Origin: a virus | IMG/VR virus record: IMGVR_UViG_3300037293_000277 | Span: 1-45,154 of that record | DNA length: 45,154 bases | Reading direction: 5' to 3' (one strand) | Shown here: piece by piece, positions 1,166-15,529 of the stretch | Layout: each line of letters opens with the position of its first letter | How positions within the stretch are numbered: position 1 is the stretch's first letter | Program-made: the position numbers and the translations under genes | Notes under the pieces: generated by a model | Database searches by the model: none | What the model was told of the DNA's origin: nothing | What the model saw: only the letters and a program-made list of their open reading frames with translations

Positions 1166-1572
1166 ACGTTTTTCAAAGCTACCTGGTCATGCAGCTCGAC
1201 ACGATTGTGATTGGTTGCGCTATTTCAAGTGCAGTATTGGCAGTTATGTACGTGTTGACGCGCAAAGCGACTGCCGACATGAACATCGAACTCGAAACCT
1301 GGCACCGTGAAAGAAAAGACGAGCCATTTCACAATGTGAAATACCTGGAAAAAGAAACGCTGCGTGCCAAGGAATTGTGCGGACAGCGCGATCAGTCATG
1401 CAAGAGAGAACGCCGGTTTCTGTGGCTGGCTTCGACACTACTCGCTGCCGTATTCGTTCTTCCGTCGACCAAGACCGCAGCTGTGACGCTGATCTTCCCG
1501 CAGATCGCCAGTAGCGAAGTGATTCGCAGCGAAGCACTCGAACTGTACCAAACGGCAAAAGACGTTGCATGA
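1162..1572 (+). CDS. Membrane protein with two transmembrane segments
   Basis: This 136-residue protein is preceded by a good ribosome site (AAGGAA, about 8 nt before the ATG). There is a hydrophobic segment at about residues 10-30 (TIVIGCAISSAVLAVMYVL), then a charged region of about 60 residues rich in Glu, Lys and Arg with two Cys. A second hydrophobic segment lies at about 88-105 (FLWLASTLLAAVFVLP), and the tail is short. This gives two membrane passes with a soluble loop between them. It sits among small early genes about 600 nt upstream of the spanin pair, so a role in lysis or superinfection is possible but unproven. Confidence 0.75.
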   Translation: MNVFQSYLVMQLDTIVIGCAISSAVLAVMYVLTRKATADMNIELETWHRERKDEPFHNVKYLEKETLRAKELCGQRDQSCKRERRFLWLASTLLAAVFVLPSTKTAAVTLIFPQIASSEVIRSEALELYQTAKDVA

Positions 1573-1871
1573 AACGCAAGCGCCGTAATGGTGAAGTCGT
1601 CTGCCGGTGCGGTGCTTACAGGTTCCCGCACCGGTTCCTAAGCGGCGACTGCGACGGCAGTGGGTATGTCCAGGAGATATACGAACCCTGGTCGACATGC
1701 AAGGGTTGCAATTTCCTCGAAGATGGTATTACCTGTGTGGTACTGGACGGCCGGGAGCCTGTGTATCACTGCCCTGAGCTGCAAGAATTTGAACGTTACG
1801 AAGGGGTTAAACGCTATGGGATACACCGTCTTACCAAACCCACCGGCTGTCTCCGTGGGAACCCGCGCTGA
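1569..1871 (+). CDS. Cys-rich small protein, probable zinc binder
   Basis: The ATG overlaps the previous stop (ATGA). The 100-residue product starts with a basic patch (MKRKRRNGEVV) and carries CRCGAYRFPH, then SGDCDGSGYV, STCKGCNF, ITCVVL and YHCPE. This is at least seven Cys plus His, a spacing compatible with one or two structural zinc sites. The CxGSGYV piece recalls DnaJ-type zinc motifs but is too short to assign. Its last 18 codons overlap the next gene by 56 nt, unusually long for this genome, so its true end may be earlier. Confidence 0.6.
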   Translation: MKRKRRNGEVVCRCGAYRFPHRFLSGDCDGSGYVQEIYEPWSTCKGCNFLEDGITCVVLDGREPVYHCPELQEFERYEGVKRYGIHRLTKPTGCLRGNPR

Positions 1872-2124
1872 AGCCGAGCTGCTGCGCAAGGATCTGCAAG
1901 TCAACAATCCGGCCGAAGACTGGCAGCTGTACAAGAACGTCGACAAGGGTGACCTGAGCAACCCGCTCGAACGCCTCTACGCACTGACCTACCGGCTGCT
2001 GGGAGTCGAAGACTCGACCAACATGGTGCTGCTGATCCAGAACCTTGACGGCACCGAGACGGACGTCACTGCGATGCGGATCATGATCGACGCGCGATCG
2101 GCGATCGACGGACTGCCGACGTGA
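1816..2124 (+). CDS. Unrecognised soluble protein of 102 residues
   Basis: The ATG at 1816 follows an AAGGGG ribosome-site-like stretch about 9 nt upstream. The protein begins GYTVLPNPPAVSVGTR and continues with mostly helical sequence (AEAELLRKDLQV, NPLERLYALTYRLLG). It ends with a mixed segment (MVLLIQNLDGTETDV, MRIMIDARSAIDGLPT). No motif is recognised. The stop overlaps a GTG at 2121. Starts further upstream in the same frame would overlap the Cys-rich gene more deeply and are less likely. Confidence 0.65.
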   Translation: MGYTVLPNPPAVSVGTRAEAELLRKDLQVNNPAEDWQLYKNVDKGDLSNPLERLYALTYRLLGVEDSTNMVLLIQNLDGTETDVTAMRIMIDARSAIDGLPT

Positions 2125-2189
2125 GTGTCGAAACCTGCTACGGCTGCTGCAACCAGGAGAAAGTGAAATGCCTCATGTCGGCTACCTGA
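2121..2189 (+). CDS. Possible 22-residue Cys-rich peptide
   Basis: A GTG overlapping the preceding stop (GTGA) opens a short frame containing CYGCCNQEKVKC, four Cys within twelve residues. It runs 22 nt into the inner-membrane spanin gene. Support is only the junction style and the Cys pattern. It may equally be leader sequence containing the ribosome site (GGAGAAAG) of the spanin gene. Confidence 0.2.
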   Translation: MSVETCYGCCNQEKVKCLMSAT

Positions 2190-2503
2190 TCGGGCTGATC
2201 GTCGTACTGGCGATCTCCAATGCGATCATCTTGAAGCGTTGGCTTGCTGCCGATGCCAACTGCCAGGCCAGCGTCAACACTGAAGCCACGAAGGCGATGG
2301 GCGAAGATATCACCGCCGGCAACAAAGGCAACCGCCAGGCGTTCGACGCCGGCGAAAGCAGCAAAGACAACGTACGAACCGTATTCGTCCCTATCGAAAG
2401 GAAAATCCATGAAACACGCTACGTGTCTACTTGCACTGGTCGTATGCCTGACGGGATGCAGGACGCTGTTCGTGCCGCGGTCGACGCCGCAAACGATCGT
2501 TGA
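2168..2503 (+). CDS. Inner-membrane spanin subunit (Rz-like)
   Basis: This 111-residue protein has one N-terminal signal-anchor helix at about residues 5-22 (GYLIGLIVVLAISNAIIL) followed by a positively charged stop (KRW). The remainder is polar and would lie in the periplasm. It ends with MPDGMQDAVRAAVDAANDR, similar to the C-terminal helix I associate with Rz-type i-spanins of proteobacterial phages. An outer-membrane lipoprotein gene begins inside its 3' end in another frame, the classic Rz/Rz1 arrangement. Spanin complexes fuse inner and outer membranes in the final step of lysis. The placement is odd: endolysin and holin candidates are tens of kilobases away. Confidence 0.75.
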   Translation: MPHVGYLIGLIVVLAISNAIILKRWLAADANCQASVNTEATKAMGEDITAGNKGNRQAFDAGESSKDNVRTVFVPIERKIHETRYVSTCTGRMPDGMQDAVRAAVDAANDR

Positions 2504-2666
2504 CTGCCGCCAGCCGAGCACCGACGACGTCCCGCCACCACCGATCGAGACGGAAAAGGATTGGGTCGAGCGCGGCGCGCTGTGGGCCGTGGTCGTGCTG
2601 CGCACGCTGACGCAGGAACGCGCGTACCGCCAGGTCGAACACACCTGCATGGAGAAACCGAAGTGA
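2409..2666 (+). CDS. Outer-membrane lipoprotein spanin subunit (Rz1-like)
   Basis: The ATG at 2409 lies within the i-spanin gene in a different frame, with an AAAGGAAAA ribosome site just upstream. The 85-residue product starts with a signal peptide (MKHATCLLALVVCLTGC) whose LTGC is a lipobox with Cys17 as the lipidation site. Next comes a proline-rich stretch (DDVPPPPIE) and a C-terminal helical part. Short length, lipobox and Pro-rich linker match o-spanins. It would pair in the periplasm with the preceding gene product. The stop overlaps the next GTG (GTGA). Confidence 0.8.
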   Translation: MKHATCLLALVVCLTGCRTLFVPRSTPQTIVDCRQPSTDDVPPPPIETEKDWVERGALWAVVVLRTLTQERAYRQVEHTCMEKPK

Positions 2667-2950
2667 CGTACGCAGAAAGGAAATCGTCGCCGTTGAAACG
2701 CTTGCTTCCGGATTATCAACGGATCGAAGCACGGGTCTGGTGCGCGATTGCGGCACGTTTCAATTTGAACGCAGTCATTGCACCTGAAATCAAGCACGCT
2801 GACCGCATCGCGCTCATGACAGAGCGTCGCGACCTGATGGGACCGCCAGTCGAGCCGTGGTACGAAGAACTTGAAGTGCTGGCTGATCAACTTCCCACAG
2901 CGCGAATTAAACCGCAGCGGCCTTGCGCAGCGAAAGGTGCTTTTCTGTGA
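2663..2950 (+). CDS. C-terminal half of an HD-type phosphohydrolase, lacking the HD motif
   Basis: The GTG start overlaps the o-spanin stop. The 95 residues contain SPLKRLLPDYQRIEARVWCAIAARF, KHADRIALMTERRDLM and a tail ending AKGAFL. This is the layout of the second half of YfbR-like HD phosphohydrolases carried by many phages (PLK..LPDY..IEAR, then K-AD....E-RDL). The family normally has about 90 preceding residues with the metal-binding His and His-Asp. Here that space is occupied by the spanin genes in other frames. Only the last metal-ligand Asp of the signature is visible, so catalytic activity as nucleotide hydrolase is doubtful. Confidence 0.6.
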   Translation: MTYAERKSSPLKRLLPDYQRIEARVWCAIAARFNLNAVIAPEIKHADRIALMTERRDLMGPPVEPWYEELEVLADQLPTARIKPQRPCAAKGAFL

Positions 2951-2970
2951 CTTTACAATAGGTACAGAGC

Positions 2971-3144
2971 GTGAAAGTAGAAACATCAAAATGCCCGCGT
3001 TGCGACGCCAACATGCCGATCGGGCTGTTCTGCAAAGGCAACTCACCTGCCGATCCGTGCCCGCTTGCCCGTTGTCCGCACCCAGGCTGCGGAACGCCGT
3101 ATCAACCAGGCCCGTGCGCCTATCAGGAGTGCCCCAGGAAATGA
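2971..3144 (+). CDS. Small Cys-rich, probable zinc-binding protein (57 residues)
   Basis: The GTG start at 2971 follows a weak ribosome site, and the stop overlaps the ATG at 3141 (ATGA). The sequence has CPRCDANMPIGLFC, then CPLARCPHPGCG, ending GPCAYQECPRK. That is nine Cys and one His in 57 residues, arranged as CxxC-type pairs typical of zinc ribbons. No named family is recognised. Small zinc ribbon proteins in early phage regions often act on host transcription or DNA processes, but nothing here shows a target. Confidence 0.6.
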   Translation: MKVETSKCPRCDANMPIGLFCKGNSPADPCPLARCPHPGCGTPYQPGPCAYQECPRK

Positions 3145-3566
3145 ACCTGCAAACCGTCATCAGCGAAACCTTTGCACATACGTTCTTTGCCAGCCTGCTC
3201 GCTGCTGTTCGCGAAGCGTTACAGCAGAACGGTATGGACCCGTGCGAATGCGAAATGTACGACATCGACGACAACACCGCCGGGATCCGCTACCGCGGTT
3301 CTCTGATGTTGAAGATCCACAAGCCCGACATCAAGATACTGCCGTCGGGGATTGGTGACGCGTGCACGGATCACTACAATAACGCATTGACACCCTGCGC
3401 AACGTATGCCTATCCCTCCCCTCTCCCAAAACAGGCGTTACCGATGATCCGCCATTCGTTTCATATCTCGCCAGTCACGCTCAAAAAACTGAAAACCAAG
3501 GCCAAGAAGCAGGGAATTTCGACTGCAGAATACCTGCGCCGTATCATCGACGCCGAACTGAAGTAA
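3141..3566 (+). CDS. Protein with a C-terminal ribbon-helix-helix DNA-binding segment
   Basis: The ATG overlaps the preceding stop. Residues 1-85 form an unassigned domain (FAHTFFASLLAAVREALQ, CECEMYDIDDN, RYRGSLMLKI). After a low-complexity stretch, the last 40 residues read IRHSFHISPVTLKKLKT, then KKQGISTAEYLRRIIDAEL. This strand-helix-helix pattern matches CopG/Arc-like ribbon-helix-helix repressors. An internal ATG at 3444 would express that 40-residue piece alone, and a TTGACA lies upstream at 3387-3392, so this stretch may be two genes. As a regulator it would be well placed just before the replication module. Confidence 0.6.
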   Translation: MNLQTVISETFAHTFFASLLAAVREALQQNGMDPCECEMYDIDDNTAGIRYRGSLMLKIHKPDIKILPSGIGDACTDHYNNALTPCATYAYPSPLPKQALPMIRHSFHISPVTLKKLKTKAKKQGISTAEYLRRIIDAELK

Positions 3567-3569
3567 GTC

Positions 3570-5726
3570 ATGTCGCCAGGGGCCGCCGCACATGAATGGG
3601 ATGCGTTTTCGCGTCTCAATTTGAGAGATCTATTGCCTGTCGTGTGTGACCCGAACATTCCGGTGTCGCCCGGCAGCAAGGTCAAGCAAGGTTCATCTGT
3701 GCCTTCGATGATCCTGGCCAACAATCACATGGTCGGGTTCGCAAATTGGCCGCGCCGCGTCACGACCAGCGTTGACGACTGGCGTTTGGATCCGCGACTT
3801 GGGATCTGCATGATCACCCGCACGGTGCATGCGATCGACGTCGATGTAACCAATCCGGAACTCGCCGCTCGGATCGAAGGCTTCATCCGCTTCACCGCTC
3901 CCGGCGGCTATCAGATGCCGAAGCGCGGCCGCGAGGGTACTTCCAAATTCGCGCTGCTGTACCGTTTGGTCGAAGCGCCAGAGTTCGTCAAGAAAACCGT
4001 CATGCAAGTCTCGACCGACGGCACGCAGCAGATCGAATTCCTGCACCACAGCCAGCAACTGCTGATCGCCGGCACCAACCCGCACCGCGGCGGCCGCTAC
4101 ACGTGGCCAGACGGTATTCCTGCGCAGCTGTCCGACATTCCGGCACTCACGTTCGCCGAGTTCGCCGAGCTGCATCGCGAGCTGGCAACAGAATTCGTCC
4201 CGGGCGGAGGTATCCGTGAGATTTCACTGAGCGACCAGACCAGCATCACGTTTGGTGTCCGCGGCCGGCTGCAGGTCGACTACGAAAACGACCCGATCCT
4301 CAAACGCATTGTTGACCAGGGCATGCTGCGCGGCATCGCGCCAGACGGTAAGGTCTTTGTCGACTGCCCTTGGGCCGACGATCACAAGCACCCCACGCCG
4401 GACAACGAAACCGAAGCGTGCTATTTCCCGCTCGGACTCGGTGGATTCGACGAACACCCCGGCTTCAAGTGCATGCACGCCACGTGCGCCGAGCGCACGC
4501 ACCAGGGCTTCCTCAGCGCGATCGGCTACGGCGACGAGCAATTTCCGATCGTCGAGACACCGAAGGCCGCGCAGACCAGGCCGCAATTTAGCTACAAAGG
4601 CAAGAGCCAGCTGATCGCGCCGAACCTGTCGAACATCGTGAAGGCGCTGCGCTGGTCCGACGGTACCGGTTATCTGTTCTTCTACGACACCTTCCTCGAC
4701 CAGCTCTGCTACATGTACGAAGACCACCGCTATCTGGTCAGCGACGAGACGTATACCGAAACGCGCTTGATGCTCACTGCGCTCGGTGTAGAAGACGGCG
4801 GCGCCAAAGAAACAGTGCGCGATGCGATGCACTTCGTCGCCAAGGAAAACACGCGCGATGCGGCGAGCATGTGGTTGAAAGAACTGTCGTGGGACGGTAC
4901 GCCCAGGCTGGTGACGTTCCACGTTGACGCGATGCGGCTCGACGATACGCCGTACTACCGAGCAGTGGTCGAGTACATGTGGTCGGCGCTTGCCGGCCGC
5001 GTCCTGTCGCCAGGCTGCAAGGCGGACATGGTCCCGATCCTCATGGGTCCGCAGGGACTGCGCAAATCAACGTTCATCGAAATGCTGGCACCGTCCGGCG
5101 ACGAGTTCGCGCAGATCAACCTGAGCGAGCGCGACGCCGACCTGACGCGCCAGCTCCGCGGCAAGCTCGTTGCGGAGTGGGAGGAAATGCGCGGTTTGAA
5201 CACACGTCACGAAGACGACGTGAAGGGCTGGATCTCACATTGCAAGGACGAATGGATCCCCAAATTCAAGGAATTCGGCAGCCAGCGCCTGCGCCGGTTC
5301 GTGGTGTTCGGCAGCGTCAACCGCCGGCGCATCATCGGCGACCCGACTGGCGGCCGGCGCTGGCTGCCGGTGTTCGTGAACCGCACACTGGATACCGAAT
5401 ATCTGGCCGCCAATCGCGATCAGCTGTGGGCTGAGGCCAGAGTGATGTTCGAGCGCTACGGCGTTCGTTGGAGCAAGGCCGAGCAGTTGGCGAAATACTA
5501 TTTGCCGATGATCTCGGAACGCGATGTCTGGACCGACCCGGTGAAGGAATACCTAGTCGACAACGTCGGGCAGGACGGCTGGACGAGTGCCCAACTGCTG
5601 CAGACAGTGTGCAATTTGCCGCCTTCACAGTTGACCCGCCACAGCCAGGAGCGCCTATACCGCGTGATGGTTTCACTGGGCTGGATCGAATCTGAAGAAG
5701 GCAAATGGTACAGCAATTTCGCTTGA
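3570..5726 (+). CDS. Primase-helicase, prim-pol N-terminus with VapE-type (virulence-associated E) P-loop ATPase
   Basis: This 718-residue protein should prime and unwind DNA at the phage fork. The first ~190 residues resemble bifunctional primase-polymerase domains: a conserved start, then HAIDVDVTN (acidic metal-binding strand) and the KRGREGTSKFALLYR segment. A Cys/His cluster (DCPWADDH, CMHATC) lies near residues 270-310. The VapE-type ATPase begins about residue 410, with Walker A GPQGLRKST at 493-501 and an acidic EWEEM Walker B-like segment downstream. Arg replaces the usual Gly before the P-loop Lys. The C-terminus is a winged-helix-like tail (QLLQTVCNLPPSQLTRHSQERL). It opens the replication block and is followed by a promoter. 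Confidence 0.85.
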   Translation: MSPGAAAHEWDAFSRLNLRDLLPVVCDPNIPVSPGSKVKQGSSVPSMILANNHMVGFANWPRRVTTSVDDWRLDPRLGICMITRTVHAIDVDVTNPELAARIEGFIRFTAPGGYQMPKRGREGTSKFALLYRLVEAPEFVKKTVMQVSTDGTQQIEFLHHSQQLLIAGTNPHRGGRYTWPDGIPAQLSDIPALTFAEFAELHRELATEFVPGGGIREISLSDQTSITFGVRGRLQVDYENDPILKRIVDQGMLRGIAPDGKVFVDCPWADDHKHPTPDNETEACYFPLGLGGFDEHPGFKCMHATCAERTHQGFLSAIGYGDEQFPIVETPKAAQTRPQFSYKGKSQLIAPNLSNIVKALRWSDGTGYLFFYDTFLDQLCYMYEDHRYLVSDETYTETRLMLTALGVEDGGAKETVRDAMHFVAKENTRDAASMWLKELSWDGTPRLVTFHVDAMRLDDTPYYRAVVEYMWSALAGRVLSPGCKADMVPILMGPQGLRKSTFIEMLAPSGDEFAQINLSERDADLTRQLRGKLVAEWEEMRGLNTRHEDDVKGWISHCKDEWIPKFKEFGSQRLRRFVVFGSVNRRRIIGDPTGGRRWLPVFVNRTLDTEYLAANRDQLWAEARVMFERYGVRWSKAEQLAKYYLPMISERDVWTDPVKEYLVDNVGQDGWTSAQLLQTVCNLPPSQLTRHSQERLYRVMVSLGWIESEEGKWYSNFA

Positions 5727-5750
5727 CAGCTTCAAAAACGTATGTCTAAT
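5723..5750 (+). promoter_or_regulatory. Sigma70-type promoter before the Ala/Lys-repeat gene
   Basis: TTGACA (5723-5728), a 16-nt spacer and TCTAAT (5745-5750) match the -35 and -10 consensus at 6/6 and 5/6 positions. A TG lies directly before the -10. The -35 overlaps the stop of the primase-helicase gene. Predicted start of transcription is about 5757, leaving a short leader with a GGAGA ribosome site before the ATG at 5789. Confidence 0.65.
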
Positions 5751-5788
5751 ATGCACACGCAGTAACCCATCAACACTGGAGATTGAAT

Positions 5789-6271
5789 ATGTCGCTCGAC
5801 CGCTTCCTCGCCGCATTCGAAACGCTCGCCACGCAGGCGGTTCGTTTCGTCGATCACGCTACCGCCACTCCGGCAAGCAAGCCGGCCGCCGACACCAAGG
5901 CCGACACCAAGGCTGCCGCCGATGCCAAGGCCGCTGCCGATGCCAAGGCTGCTGCCGATGCCAAGGCTGCTGCCGATGCCAAGGCTGCTGCCGATGCCAA
6001 GGCTGCTGCCAAGGCCGATGCCAAGGCCGATGCCAAGGCTGTCGATTCACCCGCACGGCTGACGGACGATACTGTCAACGAAAACGGCTTCAAGTACGGC
6101 ACGTTGAAGGCAGCTGTCATCGCCTACGGCGCAGAGCATGGCGCACCGGCGACGATGGCGATCCTGCAGGATCTAGGCGTCAGCCACGCCAAGCACATTG
6201 AGCCGGTGTTGTGGGAACAGGCTCACGCGCGTTTTACTCCCGCTCCTGGTGGTAAGGAAGAGTTCGCATGA
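5789..6271 (+). CDS. Ala/Lys-repeat protein with conserved C-terminal domain
   Basis: This 160-residue protein was given the ATG start at 5789 because GGAGA lies about 8 nt upstream; a TTG at 5783 is poorer. Residues 1-35 form an amphipathic start (SLDRFLAAFETLATQAVRF). Next comes a tract of KAAADA repeats predicted as a long charged helix. A compact C-terminal domain then has YGTLKAAVIAYGAEHGAPATM and LQDLGVSHAKHIEPVLWEQ. Proteins with a similar C-terminal helix pair occur beside DUF2800 and DUF2815 genes in other phages, sometimes mislabelled as rRNA biogenesis proteins. The role is unknown; accessory replication protein is a guess. The stop overlaps the next ATG. Confidence 0.75.
   Translation: MSLDRFLAAFETLATQAVRFVDHATATPASKPAADTKADTKAAADAKAAADAKAAADAKAAADAKAAADAKAAAKADAKADAKAVDSPARLTDDTVNENGFKYGTLKAAVIAYGAEHGAPATMAILQDLGVSHAKHIEPVLWEQAHARFTPAPGGKEEFA
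5912..6001 (+). repeat. Five tandem 18-bp repeats encoding AAADAK
   Basis: Five consecutive 18-bp units of gctgctgccgatgccaag type encode (AAADAK)5 in the preceding CDS. The last units are identical at the DNA level and the first differ at two wobble positions. Shorter GCCGATGCCAAG units flank the array. Near-identity suggests recent slippage expansion, so copy number may vary between isolates. Confidence 0.9.
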
Positions 6272-7458
6272 GTAAGCACGCCCTGTTTTCCGCCAGCGCT
6301 TCCGAGCGTTGGTCGAATTGCCCTGGTTCGCTGGCGATGTCGCAGGGTATTCCCAACGGCAGTTCCAGCTCGGCGCGCGAAGGCACGGCAGGGCACGATC
6401 TCGGCGACCGATGTTTGCGCACCGGCGCCGATCCACTCGACTCCGTCGGCGAGTTTATTCTCGTCGAAGGCGAAGAGATCCAGATTACCGATGATCTCGC
6501 CGAGGCCGTATTCGACTATGTCGAATACGTCCGCGGGTTCTCCGGCACGATGCTGTCCGAAACCCGCATCAACTATTCCGAATTGCTAGGCGTCGATACC
6601 GAAGAGGGCTTCGGTACTAGCGATGCGATCGTGCTGTGCGGCACGGAGCTGCATGTCTTCGACCTGAAGCTCGGTCGGCGCTACGTCGAGCCAAAGCGCA
6701 ACCGCCAGATGATGCTGTACGGCGCCGGCGTACTAAAGGTGCTACTCGACCTGGGTGAAACCGTCGACAAGGTCGCGCTGCATATCGTGCAGCCGCGTGT
6801 GGTCGAGCGCCCGATCCCGTTCGAGATGACGGTCGACGAGCTGAATCTCGAAATCGACTACCTGCGATCGCGCGCGGAAGTGGTCAAAGAGGCGTTCTTC
6901 ACCTACACCGGTCGCGAGGACAAGCACTGGCATTCGCTGTACCTGGTCCCGGGCGAGAAGCAATGCGAGTGGTGCCCGGCTGCTGCGTTCTGCCTAGCGC
7001 TGCGGAACGTGGCGCGCGAATACGTGGACGACGATTTCGATGTCGTCTCGCTGCAGCAGACCGTCCCTGGCGAAGAGATCGCAGAAAACCTGGGCATGCT
7101 GCCGCTGCTGGAAATCTTCGCGAAAGCGACGACGGGTGAAGCGAACCGCCGGTTGACGCTCGGCGAGAAAGTGCCGGGCTACAAGCTGGTCAAGGGCCGC
7201 GAGGGTAACCGCCGCTGGCGTGATGTCGAAGCCGCCGAAGAAGTCTTCGCTGACGTGGATGGTGATTTGATCTACGCACCGCGCAAACTGCTGACGCCGC
7301 CACAGATGGAAAAGGCGCTGAAGAAAAACGATGCCAAGTCGCGAATCGCAGACCTAGTCGTGCGCAACCCTGCGCGCCCGACGCTCGCTCCCGAAAGCGA
7401 TCCGCGCGAACCGTGGTCCGAAGCTGCGAGCGCCGACGAATTCGCGGTAGTCGAATGA
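6268..7458 (+). CDS. DUF2800 family PD-(D/E)XK nuclease with Fe-S cysteine set
   Basis: This 396-residue protein belongs to the phage DUF2800 family, related to RecB/AddB/Cas4 nucleases. The nuclease core is visible as GTSDAIVL (Asp119), HVFDLKLG (Asp132, Lys134) and RNRQMMLYG. The four cysteines expected for a 4Fe-4S cluster are present: Cys18 in WSNCPGS and Cys233, Cys236 and Cys242 in CEWCPAAAFC, the same one-plus-three spacing as in AddB and Cas4. It probably processes DNA ends or recombination intermediates in phage replication. It overlaps its upstream neighbour by ATGA and travels with a DUF2815 gene, as in many phages and prophages. Confidence 0.85.
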   Translation: MSKHALFSASASERWSNCPGSLAMSQGIPNGSSSSAREGTAGHDLGDRCLRTGADPLDSVGEFILVEGEEIQITDDLAEAVFDYVEYVRGFSGTMLSETRINYSELLGVDTEEGFGTSDAIVLCGTELHVFDLKLGRRYVEPKRNRQMMLYGAGVLKVLLDLGETVDKVALHIVQPRVVERPIPFEMTVDELNLEIDYLRSRAEVVKEAFFTYTGREDKHWHSLYLVPGEKQCEWCPAAAFCLALRNVAREYVDDDFDVVSLQQTVPGEEIAENLGMLPLLEIFAKATTGEANRRLTLGEKVPGYKLVKGREGNRRWRDVEAAEEVFADVDGDLIYAPRKLLTPPQMEKALKKNDAKSRIADLVVRNPARPTLAPESDPREPWSEAASADEFAVVE

Positions 7459-7631
7459 ACATCAATTGGCTTAACCCGCGGATACACTGGGCAAAACACA
7501 ACCTTCACACCATCGGTGATTGTCATTACGTAAGCGGCACGAGAATTCATGTAGTCACTCCTGATATCTGGAAACCAACAATGATAGACAATGCGCTGTG
7601 TTTCAGTGTCGTTGATCTGTTGACCACGTAA
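7455..7631 (+). CDS. Unrecognised 58-residue protein
   Basis: The ATG overlaps the stop of the DUF2800 gene (ATGA). The product has an aromatic, His-rich start (NINWLNPRIHWAKHNLHTIGD) and a mixed C-terminal half (RIHVVTPDIWKP, ALCFSVVDLL). No motif is recognised. Local composition is lower in GC than its neighbours, which may mean a recently acquired or loosely constrained gene. Confidence 0.5.
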   Translation: MNINWLNPRIHWAKHNLHTIGDCHYVSGTRIHVVTPDIWKPTMIDNALCFSVVDLLTT

Positions 7632-7640
7632 CCGCATTAC

Positions 7641-7871
7641 GTGATCGGCAGTGACGGTTACGCGCTCGCCACCTGCCCGTGGATTCACGAGCACGTTGCC
7701 GATCACTATCTCGACGTGCGATTTTATATTGTCAATCGTCAGTTCACCTGCATTTACCCGTCGTGCGTCAAGCGCACGTGGGATCAAGCATTGAGCCAAC
7801 TGGCTCACTCCGCTGTCGAGGCGGTTCTCTCGGCCAACTCAGAAGAGAAAACACCATGTCCACAAAAGTGA
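7641..7871 (+). CDS. Unrecognised 76-residue protein
   Basis: The GTG start at 7641 lies 9 nt after the previous stop. The product contains two Cys (LATCPWIHEH, YPSCVKRTW), a His-rich segment and a helical C-terminus (DQALSQLAHSAVEAVLSAN). Its last 16 nt overlap the start of the ssDNA-binding protein gene. There is no recognisable family. Sitting between nuclease and ssDNA-binding genes suggests a replication accessory at most. Confidence 0.5.
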   Translation: MIGSDGYALATCPWIHEHVADHYLDVRFYIVNRQFTCIYPSCVKRTWDQALSQLAHSAVEAVLSANSEEKTPCPQK

Positions 7872-8425
7872 TGCTACAAAAAGCCCGTCTGGCGTTCCCC
7901 GTGCTCGGCGAGCCCGAGCAGTTCCAGGGCCAGGGCAAACCACGCTATTCCGGCACGTTCCTGGTCCTGCCCGACAGTGACAACCATAAGCTGTCCCAGG
8001 CGGCGATGCTCGCGGCGGCCGAAGCGAAGTGGCCGGGCAAAGGCGCCGCTGCAGTGAAGTCGCTCACCGCCGGCCTGAAGGTCGCCATGCTCGACGGCGA
8101 TACGAAGTCCGACTACGACGGCTTTGAAGGCATGATCTACATCGGCGCGCACGCACAGGCATCGGCACCGCCGCGCCTGCTCGACGGCCAGAAGCGTGAG
8201 CTCCCCCGCGACACCGGCGTGATCTATGCCGGTTGCTTCGTCAACGCGGCGGTCGAGTTCTGGGCACAGGACAACCAGTGGGGCAAGCGCATCAACTGCA
8301 CCCTGCGCGGTGTTCAGTACGCCGGCGAGGGTCAGTCGTTCTCGGCATCGCGTCCGGCCGAGGCGGACGAGTTCGACGTGGTCGAAGAAGCGGTCGACGC
8401 TGCTGGCAGCGACGACTTCGCGTAA
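7856..8425 (+). CDS. DUF2815 family single-stranded DNA-binding protein
   Basis: This 189-residue protein begins STKVMLQKARLAFPVLGEPEQF, with the KYSGTF-like strand (PRYSGTFLVL), GVIYAGCFVNAAVEFWAQDNQWGKRINCTLRGVQY, and an acidic tail (EADEFDVVEEAVDAAGSDDFA). This is the layout of DUF2815 phage proteins, regarded as OB-fold ssDNA-binding proteins; acidic C-terminal tips are general in SSBs and recruit partners. The start at 7856 follows AGAAGAGAAA. It is followed at once by a terminator hairpin, so it can be made in excess over the polymerase downstream. Confidence 0.85.
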   Translation: MSTKVMLQKARLAFPVLGEPEQFQGQGKPRYSGTFLVLPDSDNHKLSQAAMLAAAEAKWPGKGAAAVKSLTAGLKVAMLDGDTKSDYDGFEGMIYIGAHAQASAPPRLLDGQKRELPRDTGVIYAGCFVNAAVEFWAQDNQWGKRINCTLRGVQYAGEGQSFSASRPAEADEFDVVEEAVDAAGSDDFA

Positions 8426-8430
8426 TACGA

Positions 8431-8456
8431 CCGGGAGGGGAAACCTCCCGGTTTTT
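8431..8456 (+). terminator. Intrinsic terminator after the ssDNA-binding protein gene
   Basis: An 8-bp perfect stem (8431-8438 pairing with 8444-8451, CCGGGAGG/CCTCCCGG) with a 5-nt loop is followed directly by TTTTT at 8452-8456. This is a textbook rho-independent terminator 5 nt after the stop codon. Its 3' arm and T-run are also part of a second hairpin (8448-8493), so the two structures cannot form together. Confidence 0.85.
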
Positions 8457-8493
8457 GGTCTGCGGCTTGCGCAGGCCGTAGACCAAAAACCGG
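8448..8493 (+). promoter_or_regulatory. Long alternative hairpin overlapping the terminator and the next ribosome site
   Basis: Positions 8448-8466 pair with 8475-8493: 19 pairs, all Watson-Crick except one G-U, with an 8-nt loop. The left arm takes the last four stem bases and all T-run bases of the terminator; the right arm ends in the GG of the GGAG ribosome site (8492-8495) of the gene at 8503. It could act as antiterminator while hiding the ribosome site, giving coupled control of the polymerase block. The pairing is seen in the sequence; the regulatory role is inferred. Confidence 0.55.
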
Positions 8494-8502
8494 AGATCAA
8501 AC

Positions 8503-8727
8503 ATGGTTACCATCAAGCGTGATCGGCTTGAAGCGTTCAAGCATTATCTTGATCGCGAATGCGTTGCGTATCGCGAACCAAGTGCTGCATCGCAGCATCA
8601 GGTGCTTCAGGTTCAAACCGGCGCAGGTTGGACACCGCTTTACAAGAGTGAAAAATACCCTTTGCACTACAGAACTTCAGGTCGCCTGATCGAAAACCTC
8701 GTTCGCAATTTTGCTCGCAATGACTGA
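8503..8727 (+). CDS. Unrecognised basic protein of 74 residues before the polymerase
   Basis: The ATG at 8503 is preceded by GGAG at 8492, part of a strong hairpin. The product is basic: VTIKRDRLEAFKHYLDREC at the start, a central QHQVLQVQTGAGWTPLYKSEKYP, and RLIENLVRNFARND at the end. The pattern suggests a small alpha/beta fold with a terminal helix. It overlaps the polymerase start by 8 nt. No family is recognised; a polymerase accessory role would fit the context only. Confidence 0.6.
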   Translation: MVTIKRDRLEAFKHYLDRECVAYREPSAASQHQVLQVQTGAGWTPLYKSEKYPLHYRTSGRLIENLVRNFARND

Positions 8728-10801
8728 CCTGCTCTACATCGACAGCGAAACGCGATCGCCGGCACCGATCAAGTACGGCACCGCCAAGTACATGGAGCAA
8801 GCGGAAGTCATGCTCGTGTCGTATGCCGTGAATGAGGAAGAACCTGAAACCTGGGATCTGATGCGCCGGCAGCCGATGCCGAAGCGGCTCCGAGAGGCGG
8901 TCAACGAATGTGTCCTGCTCGCGCACAACGCCTGGTTCGACCGCAATCTCTTCCAGCGCTGCAACACGTTCCCAGGCGTTGATCTCTCGCCCGCGCGCTG
9001 GGTCTGCACGATGGTGCAGGCCTACTGTCATGGTCTACCCGGCAGCCTCGACTCGCTGTGCACGGTGTACCAGATCAACGAAGCCGATGCGAAGAGCAAG
9101 CGCGGCAAATACTTCATCGGCCTGTTCTGCAAGCCGCGCAAGGACGGCGGCTGGAACGACGAAACCACGCATCCGAAGGAATGGGCGGAGTTCCGCGACG
9201 ACTACGCGCCGCGTGATATTCGCTCCATGCGCAAATTGCACAAGACGATGCCGAAGTGGAACTACCCCGGCATCGGCTTCCGTGAGGGCGAGTTCTCGCA
9301 GGAGCACCGCAACTGGCAGCTCGACCAGACGATCAACCAGCGCGGCTTTGCCGTCGACTTGAACCTGATCCGGTGCGCGATCGCAGCGGAAAAGGAAGAG
9401 CGCAAGCTGCTGAACGTGGCGACGCACGATGCGACCGAAGGCGCCGTCGAGGCAGCGACGCAGCGCGACGAGATGCTGAAGTACATCCTCGAAGCGCACG
9501 GCGTTCCGATGGCCGATCTCAAAGCCGACACGATCCGCCGCGCGCTGGACGACCCGGGTCTGCCGCCGGAGGTAAAAGAGCTGTTGGAGATCCGCGCAGC
9601 GTCGGCGCGCAACGCATCCAAGAAGTACCAGGCGGCAGAGAACTGCGTTAGTAGCGACGGGCGCATGCGCGGCACGCTGCAGTTCTGCGGCGCGCAAACG
9701 ACCGGCCGCTGGGCCGCGCGCCTGCTGCAGCCGCAGAACTTCATGCGCCCGACGATGAAGCCGGACCAGGTCGCCCGGGTGATCCAGGACATTCAGTCCG
9801 GCGTCGCGCATCTGGCCTACAGCAACCTGTCCGAAGCGCTCGGCAACTGCGTCCGCGGCATGATCATCGCTGGCGAAGGCCGGAAGCTCTGCGCCGCCGA
9901 TCTGGCGTCGATCGAGGGCCGCAGCTTGGCCTGGCTCGCGCGCGAGCAGGACATCGTCGACTTCTTCTATCAGGTCGATAGCAAGGAAGTCGACTACGAT
10001 AGCTACATGCTGACCTACGCCAGCATCTTCGGCGGCGATCCGGCGCTGGTGACCAAGGACGAGCGCCAGCAAGGCAAGCCGATCGACCTGAGCATGGGCT
10101 ACGGCGGTGGCGTGGCCGCGTACCTGACGTTCGCCGCGGTGTACCGCATCGACCTGCCAAAGATGGCGGAAAAGGTGTGGGAGATCGCTGACCCCGCGCA
10201 CATTCACGAGTGCGCCGGCAAGTACAGGTGGGCCGAGAAGAACAAATATCACGCCGGCCTGCCGTGCGAAATGTACGCGGCTTTCGAGTACGTGAAGCAG
10301 AAGTGGCGCGCGGCGCGACCGATGACCGTGCAGCTGTGGGAGGATCTGGAAACTGCCTTCCGCCAGGCAACACTGACCCAGGATCAAACGTTCACCGTCG
10401 GCGTGCTGAAGTTCAACCGCAAGGGTCAGTGGCTGCGCATCCGGCTGCCTACAGGGCGCATGCTCTGCTTCCTGCAGCCGCGATTCCAAGGCAACAAGCT
10501 GAGCTTCCTGGGATTGAACCGCTACACCCGGAAGTGGGGCCGGGTTTCGATCTACGGCGGCAAGATTTCTGGTCTGGTGACGCAAGCGTTCGCGCGCGAG
10601 GTGTTGATTGAAGCACTGCCGGATATCGAAGACGCGGGCTACCCGGTGGTGCTGTCGATTCACGACGAAGCAATCACCGAACCTGAAGACCACATGCCGC
10701 TGCAGCCGATGATCGACCGCCTGATCCGGCCGCGTGTGTTTGCACCGGGCTTGCCGCTTGCCGCTTCCGGTTTTGAAGCGCAACGCTACAGGAAGGATTG
10801 A
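8720..10801 (+). CDS. Family A DNA polymerase with 3'-5' exonuclease
   Basis: This 693-residue replicative polymerase uses the ATG at 8720, where it overlaps the preceding gene slightly; an upstream TTG is less likely. Proofreading exonuclease motifs: Exo I YIDSET (Asp8, Glu10), Exo II LLAHNAWFDRNLF and Exo III YAPRDIRSM. Polymerase motifs: A with Asp394 in AADLASIEGRSLAWLA, B with RQQGKPIDLSMGYGGG (finger helix), and C with SIHDEA (His648, Asp649, Glu650). No 5'-3' exonuclease domain is present, as usual for phage PolA. It should be the main replicase with the primase-helicase and the ssDNA-binding protein. Confidence 0.95.
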   Translation: MTDLLYIDSETRSPAPIKYGTAKYMEQAEVMLVSYAVNEEEPETWDLMRRQPMPKRLREAVNECVLLAHNAWFDRNLFQRCNTFPGVDLSPARWVCTMVQAYCHGLPGSLDSLCTVYQINEADAKSKRGKYFIGLFCKPRKDGGWNDETTHPKEWAEFRDDYAPRDIRSMRKLHKTMPKWNYPGIGFREGEFSQEHRNWQLDQTINQRGFAVDLNLIRCAIAAEKEERKLLNVATHDATEGAVEAATQRDEMLKYILEAHGVPMADLKADTIRRALDDPGLPPEVKELLEIRAASARNASKKYQAAENCVSSDGRMRGTLQFCGAQTTGRWAARLLQPQNFMRPTMKPDQVARVIQDIQSGVAHLAYSNLSEALGNCVRGMIIAGEGRKLCAADLASIEGRSLAWLAREQDIVDFFYQVDSKEVDYDSYMLTYASIFGGDPALVTKDERQQGKPIDLSMGYGGGVAAYLTFAAVYRIDLPKMAEKVWEIADPAHIHECAGKYRWAEKNKYHAGLPCEMYAAFEYVKQKWRAARPMTVQLWEDLETAFRQATLTQDQTFTVGVLKFNRKGQWLRIRLPTGRMLCFLQPRFQGNKLSFLGLNRYTRKWGRVSIYGGKISGLVTQAFAREVLIEALPDIEDAGYPVVLSIHDEAITEPEDHMPLQPMIDRLIRPRVFAPGLPLAASGFEAQRYRKD

Positions 10802-10802
10802 T

Positions 10803-11081
10803 ATGAAAGAATCATTGATCGAAAAGCACACGATCAAGCGCGTGAAAGAACTCGGTGGATTCACGCGCAAGGTCGTGTACCAGGGTCGAAAAGGCTCGCC
10901 GGATCGCTGGTGTTTTTTCCCTGGTGGCCTGCTCGTGATCGTCGAACTGAAAGCGACTGGCGAATCCCCTGATTCGCAGCAAGCACAGGAAATTGCCGAC
11001 CTGCGCGAGATGGGCATGAACGTTCACTGGACCGACAGCAAGCAAGGTGTCGACGAAATTTTGAGGTGCTATTTCCTATGA
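10803..11081 (+). CDS. VRR-NUC domain nuclease
   Basis: The 92-residue product consists of a single VRR-NUC domain. It has SLIEKHTIKRVKELGGFTRKV (the catalytic Glu of the first helix), GSPDRWCFFPGGLLVIVELKATGE (Asp and Glu-x-Lys catalytic strand) and SPDSQQAQEIADLREMGMNVHW. The family are PD-(D/E)XK structure-selective nucleases; small phage members cut branched DNA such as Holliday junctions. It begins 1 nt after the polymerase stop, and its stop overlaps the next ATG. Confidence 0.9.
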   Translation: MKESLIEKHTIKRVKELGGFTRKVVYQGRKGSPDRWCFFPGGLLVIVELKATGESPDSQQAQEIADLREMGMNVHWTDSKQGVDEILRCYFL

Positions 11082-11323
11082 GTCTGAAACTGCTGAAAGA
11101 GAATGATTTCGCATCAGCTATCTCCCGCGATTTGTTGGGAATGTGCCTGGACAATATGATCGGCGAAGGCAGTTTCCGCATGGTATACCCGTGGCTGCCG
11201 AATAAAGATTGGGTGCGCAAGATCGAACCTGTTCCTGGTCACTTTTCCAACGTCCAGGAATGGGATGTATGGGAACGCGTCAAGGAAACTAAACTCGCAC
11301 AGTGGTTCGCGCCAGTGCACTAG
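11078..11323 (+). CDS. Unrecognised 81-residue protein
   Basis: The ATG overlaps the VRR-NUC stop (ATGA). The product is soluble and aromatic-rich: LLKENDFASAISRDLLGMCLDNM, then FRMVYPWLPNKDWVRKIE and a helical end with WDVWERVKETKLAQWFAP. No motif is recognised. It lies between nuclease and methyltransferase genes. Confidence 0.6.
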   Translation: MSLKLLKENDFASAISRDLLGMCLDNMIGEGSFRMVYPWLPNKDWVRKIEPVPGHFSNVQEWDVWERVKETKLAQWFAPVH

Positions 11324-11350
11324 ATTTCCGCTTGCGGCATCATCATCATT

Positions 11351-11536
11351 ATGCAGTCGCGTACGAAGCCGATTGAAGCATGTGAGTTACCGAAAGAAGT
11401 CCCGGCGTTCTTCTGCGATCTGAAAGCGGCGAATTGGGGTCGTCTTGGTAAACGTATCGTGTGCCATGATTACGGCAACAACCCGCTGATGGAAAAAGGC
11501 ATGACGACTCGCATGAAGAAAGCCGTCTGGCGCTGA
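11351..11536 (+). CDS. Unrecognised 61-residue basic protein
   Basis: The ATG at 11351 begins a short basic protein (KPIEACELPKEVPAFFCDLKAANWGRLGKRIVCHDYGNNPL, ending MTTRMKKAVWR). Three Cys and one His could bind a metal but the spacing is not a standard finger. The stop TGA overlaps the ATG of the methyltransferase gene (TGATG), which supports it as a translated gene. Confidence 0.55.
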   Translation: MQSRTKPIEACELPKEVPAFFCDLKAANWGRLGKRIVCHDYGNNPLMEKGMTTRMKKAVWR

Positions 11537-12504
11537 TGATGAATTACTACAACGAAAACGATCCGCAAACCGTCGCGATCCTGAAGCAGCTGATCGCTGA
11601 CGGTGTTGTGCCGCCTGGTGATGTCGACGATCGTTCGATCGAGGATGTTGAACCTTATGAACTCTACGGATACGCCCAATGTCATTTCTTCGCCGGCATC
11701 GGCGGATGGGCATACGCACTGCAACTCGCAGGCTGGCCCAACGATCTCCCAGTGTGGACCGGATCCTGCCCATGCCAGCCTTTCAGCTCGGCAGGCAAAG
11801 GCACTGGGTTTGCTGACGAGCGGCACTTGTGGCCTGCGTGGTACTGGCTCATCCAGCAGCTCCGACCTGCAACTGTGTTTGGAGAGCAGGTTGCAAGCAA
11901 GAACGTCGATCCTTGGGTCGACCTTGTACACGCTGACATGGAAACCCTGGATTACACCTTCGGGTGTGTCGCGTTTCCGGCTGCGGGCATCGGTGCGCCG
12001 CACATCCGAGACAGAAACTACTGGGCGGGTCACGCCAACGACGAGGGACTGGAAGGACTCGCCGGGCATGGTGGCGCAGCGGGACGGCAAAGACAGGAAC
12101 GACCAGTTGCCGCGCCAGGCTTATTTAGCGGGCTGGCCGACGCCAACAGTAGGCAATGCGATGGGTTCTCAGTCATGCGCGGGAATGAGTGCGACGGGGA
12201 AGATGCCGGACGGGCGCAAAGTTTCAGTGGCGCTGCCGCATGTAGCGACGATGGCGGGATGGTCGACTCCGGTAGTGGGATCAACCGCACCGTCAGCACA
12301 CGGCCAGATCAGCGGGGATTACAGGCGAGCAATGGCGGCGGCGGCGCTCAACGGAATAACGAACCCGGCCCGGTTAACGGCGTTTGGCGTGATGCTGACT
12401 GGCTCGGCTGCAGGGATGGAAAATGGCGGCCAGTTGAACCCGGCACATTCCCGCTGGCTCATGGGGGTATCCGGTCGCGTGGGACGTCTCCGGGGTTACG
12501 GTAA
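11536..12504 (+). CDS. DNA C5-cytosine methyltransferase, frameshifted near the 3' end
   Basis: The product has motif I (FAGIGGW, from Phe52), motif IV with the catalytic Cys80 (GSCPCQPFS), motif VI as FGEQV (Glu117) and GAPHIRDRNYW, then a Gly-rich target-recognition region and CRDGKWRPVEPGTFPLAHG. The methylase C-terminal motif with GRVGRLRGYGKAI is needed next, but it lies in another frame and ends at 12580, overlapping the next gene's GTG. One G fewer in the GGGGG at 12463-12467 restores a full protein of about 347 residues. As written the enzyme lacks motif X and is probably inactive. Phage cytosine methylases usually protect against host restriction. Confidence 0.85.
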   Translation: MMNYYNENDPQTVAILKQLIADGVVPPGDVDDRSIEDVEPYELYGYAQCHFFAGIGGWAYALQLAGWPNDLPVWTGSCPCQPFSSAGKGTGFADERHLWPAWYWLIQQLRPATVFGEQVASKNVDPWVDLVHADMETLDYTFGCVAFPAAGIGAPHIRDRNYWAGHANDEGLEGLAGHGGAAGRQRQERPVAAPGLFSGLADANSRQCDGFSVMRGNECDGEDAGRAQSFSGAAACSDDGGMVDSGSGINRTVSTRPDQRGLQASNGGGGAQRNNEPGPVNGVWRDADWLGCRDGKWRPVEPGTFPLAHGGIRSRGTSPGLR

Positions 12505-12580
12505 GGCAATCGTTCCGCAGGCTGCGGCAGAATTCATCAAAACATTTGTCTTCGCAAAAACCATGAGGAATTTGTCGTGA
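11645..12580 (+). other. Long overlapping reading frame across the methyltransferase gene (dual coding)
   Basis: A frame shifted by one base from the methyltransferase is open from ATG 11645 to 12580 (311 codons). It encodes sequence that I recognise from phage proteins often deposited as hypothetical: SARQAKALGLLTSGTCG, ILGSTLYTLTWKPW, RDWKDSPGM, repeated GWPTPT-like motifs, and NGGQLNPAHSRWLMG. Both frames therefore match widely seen sequences over the same bases. Whether this frame is translated is unknown; it may be a conserved shadow of the methylase gene. The apparent extra G near 12465 puts the methylase C-terminus into this frame. Confidence 0.4.
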
Positions 12581-12837
12581 ACGATCAGTTCCAATGCGAA
12601 TTCCAAATCACCGAACGCGAGTTGCGTTTGTACGAACTAGCTCGCCAGTACGGCCAGCGCTGTGAAGCATTTGATTTGCTGGTGTGCGGCGGTATGTCAC
12701 CTGCCGGTACCGCGATACCTGTTACGCGCCATCAACGATCGGTAGTTGCCTTCAACGCTCGCCAAGTCAAGGCAGAGCTGTTTGCCGGTACCGACTTCAC
12801 ACGTGAAGAAATCAGCAGAGCGCTGCGTGACCTATGA
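12577..12837 (+). CDS. Unrecognised 86-residue protein between two methyltransferases
   Basis: The GTG start overlaps the position where the intact cytosine methylase would stop (GTGA at 12577-12580), which supports both calls. The product begins NDQFQCEFQITERELRLYELARQYG and ends VKAELFAGTDFTREEISRALRDL, helical at both ends with a Gly/Pro-rich middle. Its stop overlaps the next ATG. No family is recognised. Confidence 0.6.
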   Translation: MNDQFQCEFQITERELRLYELARQYGQRCEAFDLLVCGGMSPAGTAIPVTRHQRSVVAFNARQVKAELFAGTDFTREEISRALRDL

Positions 12838-14045
12838 GCAGATTTGAAATTCATCAAGGCGAGTGCTTAGAAGTCCTGCGGAGCATGCCGGACAACAGTG
12901 TTGATTCGATCGTCACAGATCCGCCGTACGGCCTCGGTAAAGAACCCGATGCGTTTGCAATGCTGTGCGATTGGATGAATACCGGTCACCATGACGCACA
13001 AGGCTCCGGGTTCATGGGGAAGGAATGGGATGCTTTCGTTCCGCAACCTGCTGTGTGGCGCGAGTGCCTGCGCGTACTGAAACCCGGCGGACATCTGCTT
13101 TCGTTTGGCGGTACCCGCACGTACGATCTTGTACTGCTGGGTCTGCGCATCGCCGGATTCGAAATCCGTGATTGCATTATGTGGTTGTACGGCAGTGGAT
13201 TTCCGAAGTCACGTAACGGAACGTGGGGCGGCACCGCGCTCAAGCCCGCCCACGAGCCTGTCGTCGTTGCTCGTAAGCCGTTGGAAGGCACAGTGGCTGC
13301 GAACGTGCTGGCGTACGGCACAGGTGCCTTGAATATCGACGGGTGCAGGGTTCCGGCAACCAGTGAAAACCGAACACGTATCGGGGAGTCTTCTCAGGAA
13401 ACTCGATATACGGAAATAGGCACCACGAATTTTGCCGCAACACCAGGCACCCGCGGCGGCGATCCGGCTGGTCGCTGGCCTGCCAACATCATCCACGACG
13501 GCAGCGACGAAGTGCGAGCAGCGTTTCCTGATGCCAAAGGCCAACAAGGCGACCTGAAAGAAACAGGGCATGCTCGTCTTTCATCCGGTAGATTTGGCGA
13601 CATGCCGCCGGCGTGCGCGCACCCCGCCAGGATTGAGACTGACACCAGCGCTGCTCGCTTCTTCTATTGCGCAAAAGCCAGCAAGACCGATCGGAACGAA
13701 GGCTGCGAAGCGCTTCCGCTACGAGCCTCCGGTATGGTTTCTAACACATCAGGTCAGCACATCACGCGACGTGACGGCGGCGCACCGAAGCCAACAGCGA
13801 ATAACCACCCAACCGTCAAACCAACCGAACTCATGCGTTATCTTTGCCGGCTGGTGACACCGCACAACGGAATCGTGCTTGACCCGTTTGCAGGATCAGG
13901 TAGCACCGGAAAAGCTGCTGTTATTGAAAATTTTCGTTTTATAGGGATTGAACTTGATCGCGATAAAGACGGCAATTCACTTGGCTACATTAGGCTTGCA
14001 CATGCAAGAATAGCAGCTGTTTTGAAACCGGAAGATTTAGCGTGA
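12834..14045 (+). CDS. DNA amino-methyltransferase (N6-adenine or N4-cytosine, beta-type order)
   Basis: This 403-residue protein has the catalytic motif DPPY at residues 29-32 near the N-terminus and the S-adenosylmethionine site DPFAGSGSTG at about residue 350, close to the C-terminus. This is the order of beta-class methyltransferases. Other typical parts: FEIHQGECLEVLRSMPDNSVDSIVT at the start, WRECLRVLKPGGHLLSFGGTRTYD, and NNHPTVKPTELMRYLCRLVTP before the AdoMet site. The central region from about 110 to 320 would hold target recognition. It forms a cluster with the cytosine methylase, suggesting multi-base modification of phage DNA. No cognate endonuclease is present. Confidence 0.9.
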   Translation: MSRFEIHQGECLEVLRSMPDNSVDSIVTDPPYGLGKEPDAFAMLCDWMNTGHHDAQGSGFMGKEWDAFVPQPAVWRECLRVLKPGGHLLSFGGTRTYDLVLLGLRIAGFEIRDCIMWLYGSGFPKSRNGTWGGTALKPAHEPVVVARKPLEGTVAANVLAYGTGALNIDGCRVPATSENRTRIGESSQETRYTEIGTTNFAATPGTRGGDPAGRWPANIIHDGSDEVRAAFPDAKGQQGDLKETGHARLSSGRFGDMPPACAHPARIETDTSAARFFYCAKASKTDRNEGCEALPLRASGMVSNTSGQHITRRDGGAPKPTANNHPTVKPTELMRYLCRLVTPHNGIVLDPFAGSGSTGKAAVIENFRFIGIELDRDKDGNSLGYIRLAHARIAAVLKPEDLA

Positions 14046-15469
14046 CCGAACTCTTCGTCCCGAAGCCGTATCAAGGCAAGCTGATCACGCACATGACCGG
14101 CAACCCGCGGCACAACGGCTTCGCCTCTCCTGGCATGGGCAAAACCGTGTCGACGCTGACTGCGCTCAGCATCATGACGTTGGTCGACGACGTCTTCCCT
14201 GCGTTGGCGATTGGCCCGATGCGTGTTGCAAACAGCGTCTGGCATCGTGAGGTTGAGAAGTGGTCGCACACCAAGGGTCTGCGCGTATCGCGCGTGCTCG
14301 GCACGTTGGACGAGCGCCTGGCTGCGCTGCGCACGCCGGCCGATATCTACACCACACATTACGGGCTGCTGGCATGGTTGCACAGCTATTTCGAAGACAA
14401 GAAGTGGCCGTTCCGTTGGGTGATCGGCGACGAGTCCACGCGGCTGAAAAACAACCGCTGCAGCTTCCAGCGCAGCAAGACCGGCAAACTGTTCTTGCGC
14501 ACCGGCGGGGGTGTGAACGCTTCGGCGATAGCGCGCTACGCGCCACGTACGCCGTACTGGACAAACCTGTCAGGCACGCCGGCACCGAACGGGTTGAAGG
14601 ATCTGTGGGGTCAGCACTGGTACGTCGACTTCGGCGCGACTCTCGGCAATTCGTACGATGCCTTCACGAAGCGCTGGTTCTATCAGCGCCGCGGGACGCA
14701 GCGCGAGCAGGCCGTGTTCGACCCGCTGCCGCATGCGTTCGACGAGATCACGGAGCGCATGCGCCCGACCACGATTTCGCTTGACGCCTACGACTACTTT
14801 GATTGCGAGAAGCCTCGTGAAGTAAACCTGCCGGTCGTGCTTCCGGAAGCGAGCATGAAGCAATACCGGAAGATGGAGCGCGAAGCACTGATCAAACTGA
14901 GTAGCGAAAAAGTGATCACTGCGGTCAACGCCGGTGTCGCAACCGCGAAGTGCATGCAGATCGCCAGCGGCCACGTGTTTGACGGTGAGGGTCTGCCGCA
15001 TCTGGTACATACCGAAAAGCTGGATGCGCTGGAATCGTTGGTCGAAAACCTGCAGGGTGCACCGCTGCTGGTGGCCTATCATTTCAAACCCGATCTGGCC
15101 GCGATCCTGAAACGGTTCAAGCTCGCCGTCGCACTGCCTAGCGGCGCGAAGCAGGCCCAGGTCGAGGACGACTGGAACGCCGGCAAGATTCCGATGCTGC
15201 TCGTGCATCCGGCGAGCGCCGGCCACGGTTTGAATCTGCAGCACGGCGGGTGCAACCTGTGCATCTATACACCGTACTGGGATCTGGAATTGTACCTCCA
15301 AGTGATCGAGCGGATTGGCCCGGTGCGGCAGGTGCAAGCCGGTTACGATCGCCTAGTCAACGTATACCGCATCGTTGCCGAAGGTACGCTGGATGAAATG
15401 ATGGTCAACCAGATCATCCCCGGCAAGAGCGGATTGCAAGATGCATTCAACAAGAGGATGGCCGCATGA
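14042..15469 (+). CDS. SNF2-type DEAD-like helicase/translocase
   Basis: This 475-residue superfamily 2 ATPase has Walker A SPGMGKTVSTL (Lys34), helicase motif Ia IGPMRVANSVWHREVEKW, motif II GDEST (Asp130, Glu131), motif III NLSGTPAPNGLKDLWGQ, and motif V/VI HPASAGHGLNLQ and QVIERIGPVRQ. It matches the short phage SNF2-like helicases found with DUF2800/DUF2815/VRR-NUC genes. The expected last Arg finger region reads IERIGPVRQ where many relatives have R-x-x-R-x-G-Q, so it is slightly divergent. It probably remodels replication or recombination intermediates. The GTG start overlaps the methylase stop. Confidence 0.9.
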   Translation: MTELFVPKPYQGKLITHMTGNPRHNGFASPGMGKTVSTLTALSIMTLVDDVFPALAIGPMRVANSVWHREVEKWSHTKGLRVSRVLGTLDERLAALRTPADIYTTHYGLLAWLHSYFEDKKWPFRWVIGDESTRLKNNRCSFQRSKTGKLFLRTGGGVNASAIARYAPRTPYWTNLSGTPAPNGLKDLWGQHWYVDFGATLGNSYDAFTKRWFYQRRGTQREQAVFDPLPHAFDEITERMRPTTISLDAYDYFDCEKPREVNLPVVLPEASMKQYRKMEREALIKLSSEKVITAVNAGVATAKCMQIASGHVFDGEGLPHLVHTEKLDALESLVENLQGAPLLVAYHFKPDLAAILKRFKLAVALPSGAKQAQVEDDWNAGKIPMLLVHPASAGHGLNLQHGGCNLCIYTPYWDLELYLQVIERIGPVRQVQAGYDRLVNVYRIVAEGTLDEMMVNQIIPGKSGLQDAFNKRMAA

Positions 15470-15473
15470 AAAA

Positions 15474-15500: not shown

Positions 15501-15529
15501 CCTGCTCACCTCCGTGACCGGAGATCACC

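Follow-up and report, generated by a model that had tools for sequence, protein, structure and literature searches.

The analysis covered a virus record 45,154 bases long, which is referred to in full as the window. A gene encoding an Enc34/DUF2815 ssDNA-binding protein (SSB; 189 aa, 7856..8425, + strand) was recognised from its translation and its match to PF10991 (E=3.9e-29). A spacer of 77 nt (8426-8502) separates it from an ORF of 74 aa (8503..8727, + strand), for which weak phage homologues were found (best E=1e-4). The initial annotation had taken the polymerase to be the next gene; the 74-aa ORF precedes it, and the gene for the family A DNA polymerase (693 aa, 8720..10801, + strand) starts within the end of this ORF. 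The PF00476 match of the polymerase is under the curated cut-off, and its identity to the relatives found is at most about 43-45%. The same gene order is present in Bordetella phage BPP-1, in which the small ORF encodes 63 aa. As none of 50,697 phage records matched the SSB-polymerase spacer region at the DNA level, distant relatives had to be sought by protein similarity. Two inverted repeats were also seen further downstream in the window: an imperfect one of 19 nt directly past the polymerase stop codon (10828-10878), and a perfect one of 23 nt with an 18-nt spacer (22269-22332) within a minus-strand ORF (21954-22838).

Two hairpins, HP1 and HP2, are predicted on the + strand and together span most of the SSB spacer. 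HP1 (8429..8453; 9-10 bp) is the perfect intrinsic terminator that had been proposed between SSB and the downstream replication genes: nine Watson-Crick pairs between A8430 and T8452 enclose a GGAAA loop, G8429-U8453 can extend the stem, and the G+C-rich hairpin is followed at once by a run of five U (8452..8456). It was the top terminator-like site in a scan of positions 1-20000. HP2 pairs 8448..8468 with 8473..8493 around a 4-nt loop, and comprises 21 pairs (19 Watson-Crick and two G-U) rather than the 19 first counted. The sharing described in the initial annotation was borne out, as 8448-8452/3 (about 5 nt) belongs both to the 3' arm of HP1 and to the 5' arm of HP2, and the U-run is paired only in HP2, by an A-run at 8485-8489. 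At the DNA level HP2 is a 23+23 nt inverted repeat (91%), second in the list of short-range inverted repeats of the window. The 91-nt stretch folded with -47.6 kcal/mol (z = -6.1), and none of 200 shuffles folded as well. No gathering-score match to Rfam 15 was obtained in the window, with chance-level matches only at 7800-8800, and all matches to an exact pattern of the HP2 arm lacked the second arm.

The initial annotation had interpreted the hairpins as mutually exclusive: one fold would terminate transcription, the other would permit read-through but hide the ribosome site, and SSB might set the choice. The five common nucleotides and the pairing of the U-run in HP2 alone speak for such a switch. 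However, the two folds coexist: HP1 with a trimmed HP2 (-44.6 kcal/mol) and a trimmed HP1 with the complete HP2 (-44.0 kcal/mol) are isoenergetic, no more than about 5 nt move from one hairpin to the other, and the cores of both hairpins (for HP1, pairs 8433-8449 to 8438-8444) have pair probabilities of P>=0.99, so that the mutual exclusion expected of an attenuator is not seen. In relatives, the overlap of HP1 and HP2 is often 0-3 nt. The order of synthesis also argues against a choice between stopping and continuing. In a series of folds with advancing 3' ends, HP1 was complete at 8452-8456 and the U-run became paired only once the RNA reached ~8488; as transcription passes the stop site (8452-8457) before it reaches the right arm of HP2 (8473-8493), HP2 cannot decide termination as does an antiterminator, which must be able to form before the terminator is complete. 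A classical attenuator likewise combines a terminator with a second hairpin that has sequence in common with it; HP2, however, follows the terminator and recruits the 3' arm and U-run of HP1 rather than the 5' arm, and therefore forms too late to prevent termination. Put-type antitermination RNAs were also considered, and no evidence for them was found.

The likely Shine-Dalgarno sequence of the 74-aa ORF is GGAG (8492..8495, + strand), the first two bases of which are the last two of HP2 (8492-8493). The right arm of HP2 therefore does reach the ribosome site, as had been noted, but does not hide it: the two pairs that make up its only contact with the Shine-Dalgarno sequence (8448-8493 and 8449-8492) have P<0.005, whereas a riboregulator that sequesters a ribosome site has the Shine-Dalgarno sequence paired in its stem. 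The same holds in relatives, in which the Shine-Dalgarno sequence sits just outside the stem. HP2 ends 9-21 nt before an ATG in nine loci (the window, L039, L149, L158, L173, L177, BPP-1, L095 and L166), with the Shine-Dalgarno sequence outside or nearly outside the stem in all of them. Taken with the coexistence of the two folds, these observations make the proposed switch very improbable.

Several relatives carry the layout in other sequence; in BPP-1 it reads GCGCCCCGGCCTTCGGGCCGGGCGC-TTTGGCTGGGGCG...CGCCCCAGCCAAAGCG. A scan rule was designed after several such cases had been spotted by eye among SSB relatives: a mismatch-free HP1 of >=7 bp, an HP2 whose start falls between -9 and +3 relative to the HP1 end, and a net HP2 stem of >=14. 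Among 75 loci of this first set, 11 had the element within 250 nt of the SSB stop (<=250 nt), against three sites elsewhere in 1.25 Mb. As the first set had inspired the scan, a second, independent set of loci was fetched by polymerase similarity; among these 68 new loci, 20 had the element within 1,600 nt upstream of the polymerase. The 1.28 Mb outside these intervals contained 10 sites, one of which (L140) lies just after an SSB gene. In the merged non-redundant set, 33 of 145 loci had the element, one in each, within SSB-polymerase intervals that total 104 kb; 14 sites were found elsewhere in 2.87 Mb. The densities are 3.2 and 0.049 per 10 kb, respectively, a 65-fold difference. About nine of the 33 belong to one enteric-type family and one (L052) is tRNA-like, which leaves some 21 distinct elements; about three quarters of the SSB-polymerase intervals have no element at the scan threshold, and the counts depend on the thresholds chosen. 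Conservation of the second hairpin among relatives, a point on which the initial annotation had let its proposal depend beforehand, was thus observed. The same layout in different sequences across many distantly related phages argues for a real control element.

Intergenic sequence is over-represented in the SSB-polymerase interval, and a control within terminators therefore matters. HP2 accompanied six of 33 U-run terminators in the interval and none of 287 elsewhere (0/287), and arose in 0.15 cases per replicate when the sequence downstream of the terminators was shuffled. The simplest view of the pair would be a passive one, in which HP1 is an ordinary terminator and HP2 has no regulatory part, but only shields the spacer from Rho or RNase E or makes ends more stable. 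Coverage of most of the 77-nt spacer is consistent with this, as is sequence that is free while pairing is kept. The passive view leaves unexplained why HP2 accompanies terminators only in this interval and why it starts exactly at the HP1 junction, and is considered unlikely.

Close relatives retain HP1 and its flanks where the HP2 sequence has been replaced. BPP-1, L173 and L177 have CCCGGCCYTCGGGCCGGGCGCTTTGG and AAAGCGAACAC in common, with the HP2 sequence replaced and its pairing kept; similarly, L119, L154 and L166 have CACCCGGCC..GCCGGGTG in common and a rewritten HP2 stem that still pairs. The HP2 stem is not kept everywhere, as L171 does not pass the scan although it is closely related to L166. 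Counts of pairs exclude alignment A3, in which L183 was wrongly cut. Because the elements had been selected for pairing, less weight is given to these pair changes than to the enrichment by location and to the strand bias described below. Arm spacing varies widely, and no evident common motif was found among the HP2 loops, which range from 3 to over 100 nt. The U-run is weak or absent in several elements (L027, L029, L134 and L159); termination is thus no general feature of the group.

An inverted repeat could also act as DNA, e.g., as a replication origin, an operator or a recombination boundary of gene cassettes, and the element does lie at a boundary where cassettes are inserted. The detection treats G-T and A-C oppositions alike and is therefore strand-symmetric; the 21 non-redundant elements (the tRNA-like L052/L088 was excluded) nevertheless contained 22 G-T and seven A-C oppositions (p=0.008). 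This excess of G-U over A-C points to RNA of the coding strand and disfavours an operator or origin at the DNA level. Together with the variable arm spacing, it leaves a DNA-level role scarcely credible.

In enteric-type loci, SSB, HP1, HP2, the Shine-Dalgarno sequence and the polymerase gene follow one another within about 90 nt; this form is also present between the DUF2815 and polymerase genes of an E. coli prophage (strain STEC383). In five loci (L114, L117, L124, L126 and L164), a gene cassette separates SSB from the HP1-HP2-polymerase unit, a terminator-like hairpin stands alone after SSB, and the distance from HP1-HP2 to the polymerase is 68-80 nt; the spacer has the appearance of a hot spot for insertions. 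As HP1-HP2 stays near the polymerase in these loci, HP2 there goes with the leader of what follows. A hairpin flush with a Shine-Dalgarno sequence could act on translation instead, and for loci with HP2 before the polymerase the main rival would be a translational operator: a replication protein of the phage, either the polymerase or SSB, would bind the HP2 leader and repress the gene downstream, as gp43 and gp32 of T4 and RB69 act on their own messages. The flush position of HP2 upstream of the polymerase Shine-Dalgarno sequence in enteric-type loci, and its retention with the polymerase where cassettes part it from SSB, fit this model. There is also a precedent in T4 gp43, whose target hairpin lies about 40 nt ahead of the gp43 start codon (PMC3014915), and the gp43 and gp32 operators of T4 and RB69 resemble HP2 as structured leaders of phage replication genes (PMC3014915). 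However, those operators have specific loop or pseudoknot sequences and lie as conserved hairpins in the leader of the gene for their own ligand, whereas here the loops vary without an evident common motif, and the gene next after HP2 is often not the polymerase (in the window it is the 74-aa ORF, and in L158 it is not the polymerase either). In several further loci HP2 adjoins another RNA and no ribosome site. Translational repression is therefore regarded as a doubtful account of the element.

That other RNA, structured and about 155 nt long, lies between SSB and polymerase in other relatives and has GCGGG at its 5' end. Helix P0 has its partner far downstream, between P1 and P2 a 13-nt loop faces AAC, and P3 is a further hairpin; P0 crosses P1/P2 and so forms a pseudoknot. 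In 13 sequences, aligned by sequence alone and from which the helices had also been read by eye, 87% of the pair cells form and covariation is strong, with a score of 0.535 compared with 0.07-0.13 for slid versions. A covariance model found 31 places in 1.56 Mb (L021:4588-4737, L125:3833-3984, L135:3832-3986, L024:4534-4686 and 27 others), all on the coding strand and more than ten of them outside the training sequences; the places checked were located in the SSB-polymerase interval. Burkholderia phage BcepC6B was among the hits (L090:8000-8146), and the window gave no match to the model. Nothing reached the Rfam gathering score in 17 loci, with chance-level matches only for L125; this pseudoknotted RNA is an undescribed family with no Rfam counterpart.

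The right arm of HP2 ends <=2 nt from the 5' boundary of the pseudoknotted RNA in eight loci (L015, L027, L029, L030, L045, L048, L134 and L159). In L052 (5660-5785; the same in L088/L089), a terminator-like hairpin is directly followed by a tRNA-like structure, which has an acceptor stem of 16 bp, received a four-base anticodon call and ends about 5 nt before the pseudoknotted RNA; what the scan had scored as HP2 in L052/L088 is the long acceptor stem of this structure. Judging from this one case, a tRNA-like structure may take the place of HP2, as a processing signal might allow. A small hairpin, CCTCTGGGGGTTCCCGGGGGAG, recurs with close variants inside the HP2 loop of L027, L029 and L159, and also upstream of the pseudoknotted RNA in L021-L023 and L137.

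Replication requires SSB far above polymerase, and how a single operon sets this ratio is known in few systems. The reading favoured here, to which a probability of about 0.5 is assigned, is that HP1 and HP2 together act between cistrons, as an RNA element by which a single replication operon is split into two units of expression. HP1 would end most transcripts just after SSB and protect their 3' ends, so that SSB would be made in excess; the high ratio of SSB to polymerase suggested in the initial annotation fits the placement of the terminator between SSB and the downstream replication genes. RNA polymerases that read through would make HP2, the 5' arm of which begins in the 3' arm of HP1 and would bury the U-run. 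HP2 would then stack on HP1 and end exactly where the downstream RNA begins, at the Shine-Dalgarno sequence of the following gene or, in relatives, at the start of the pseudoknotted RNA. Present only in read-through RNA, HP2 would serve for demarcation and processing, and is probably an RNase III-type processing site or a hairpin that stabilises the 5' end of the downstream message. Intercistronic RNase III sites are long, nearly perfect RNA duplexes between cistrons, and the HP2 stems are of this kind, with 14-24 pairs in 33 loci; stems of this length are only suggestive of RNase III sites.

Long hairpins between genes are processed by RNase III in phage T7 to yield separate messages. HP2 resembles them in predicted structure, as a long intergenic hairpin just upstream of the next ribosome site, but is joined to an intrinsic terminator, the U-run of which forms part of HP2. 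In the tI/sib retroregulator of lambda int, a terminator directly follows the gene and read-through RNA adds structure there; the RNase III stem specific to read-through RNA destabilises the upstream message. The first two features are predicted for HP1-HP2 as well. However, in the sequence downstream of lambda int (L097) no second stem abuts the terminator and begins within its U-run, and the analogy is structural only, since sib leads to decay of the upstream message whereas stability of the SSB RNA is expected here.

More broadly, HP1-HP2 may represent an undescribed class, in which the U-run of a terminator opens a second conserved stem, that together with the pseudoknotted RNA would process and ration the SSB-polymerase message across many phages; this extension is put forward tentatively. 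An earlier description of the element may exist, as the literature searched was mostly outside subscription journals. Phages keep structured RNA in a spacer for which Rfam has no description, and the ratio question is directly testable because an element of about 65 nt, conserved in layout and free in sequence, is present in an E. coli prophage.

In two close SSB relatives (L003 and L018), the SSB-polymerase interval contains one strong terminator and lacks HP2; these loci offer a natural comparison for the role of HP2.
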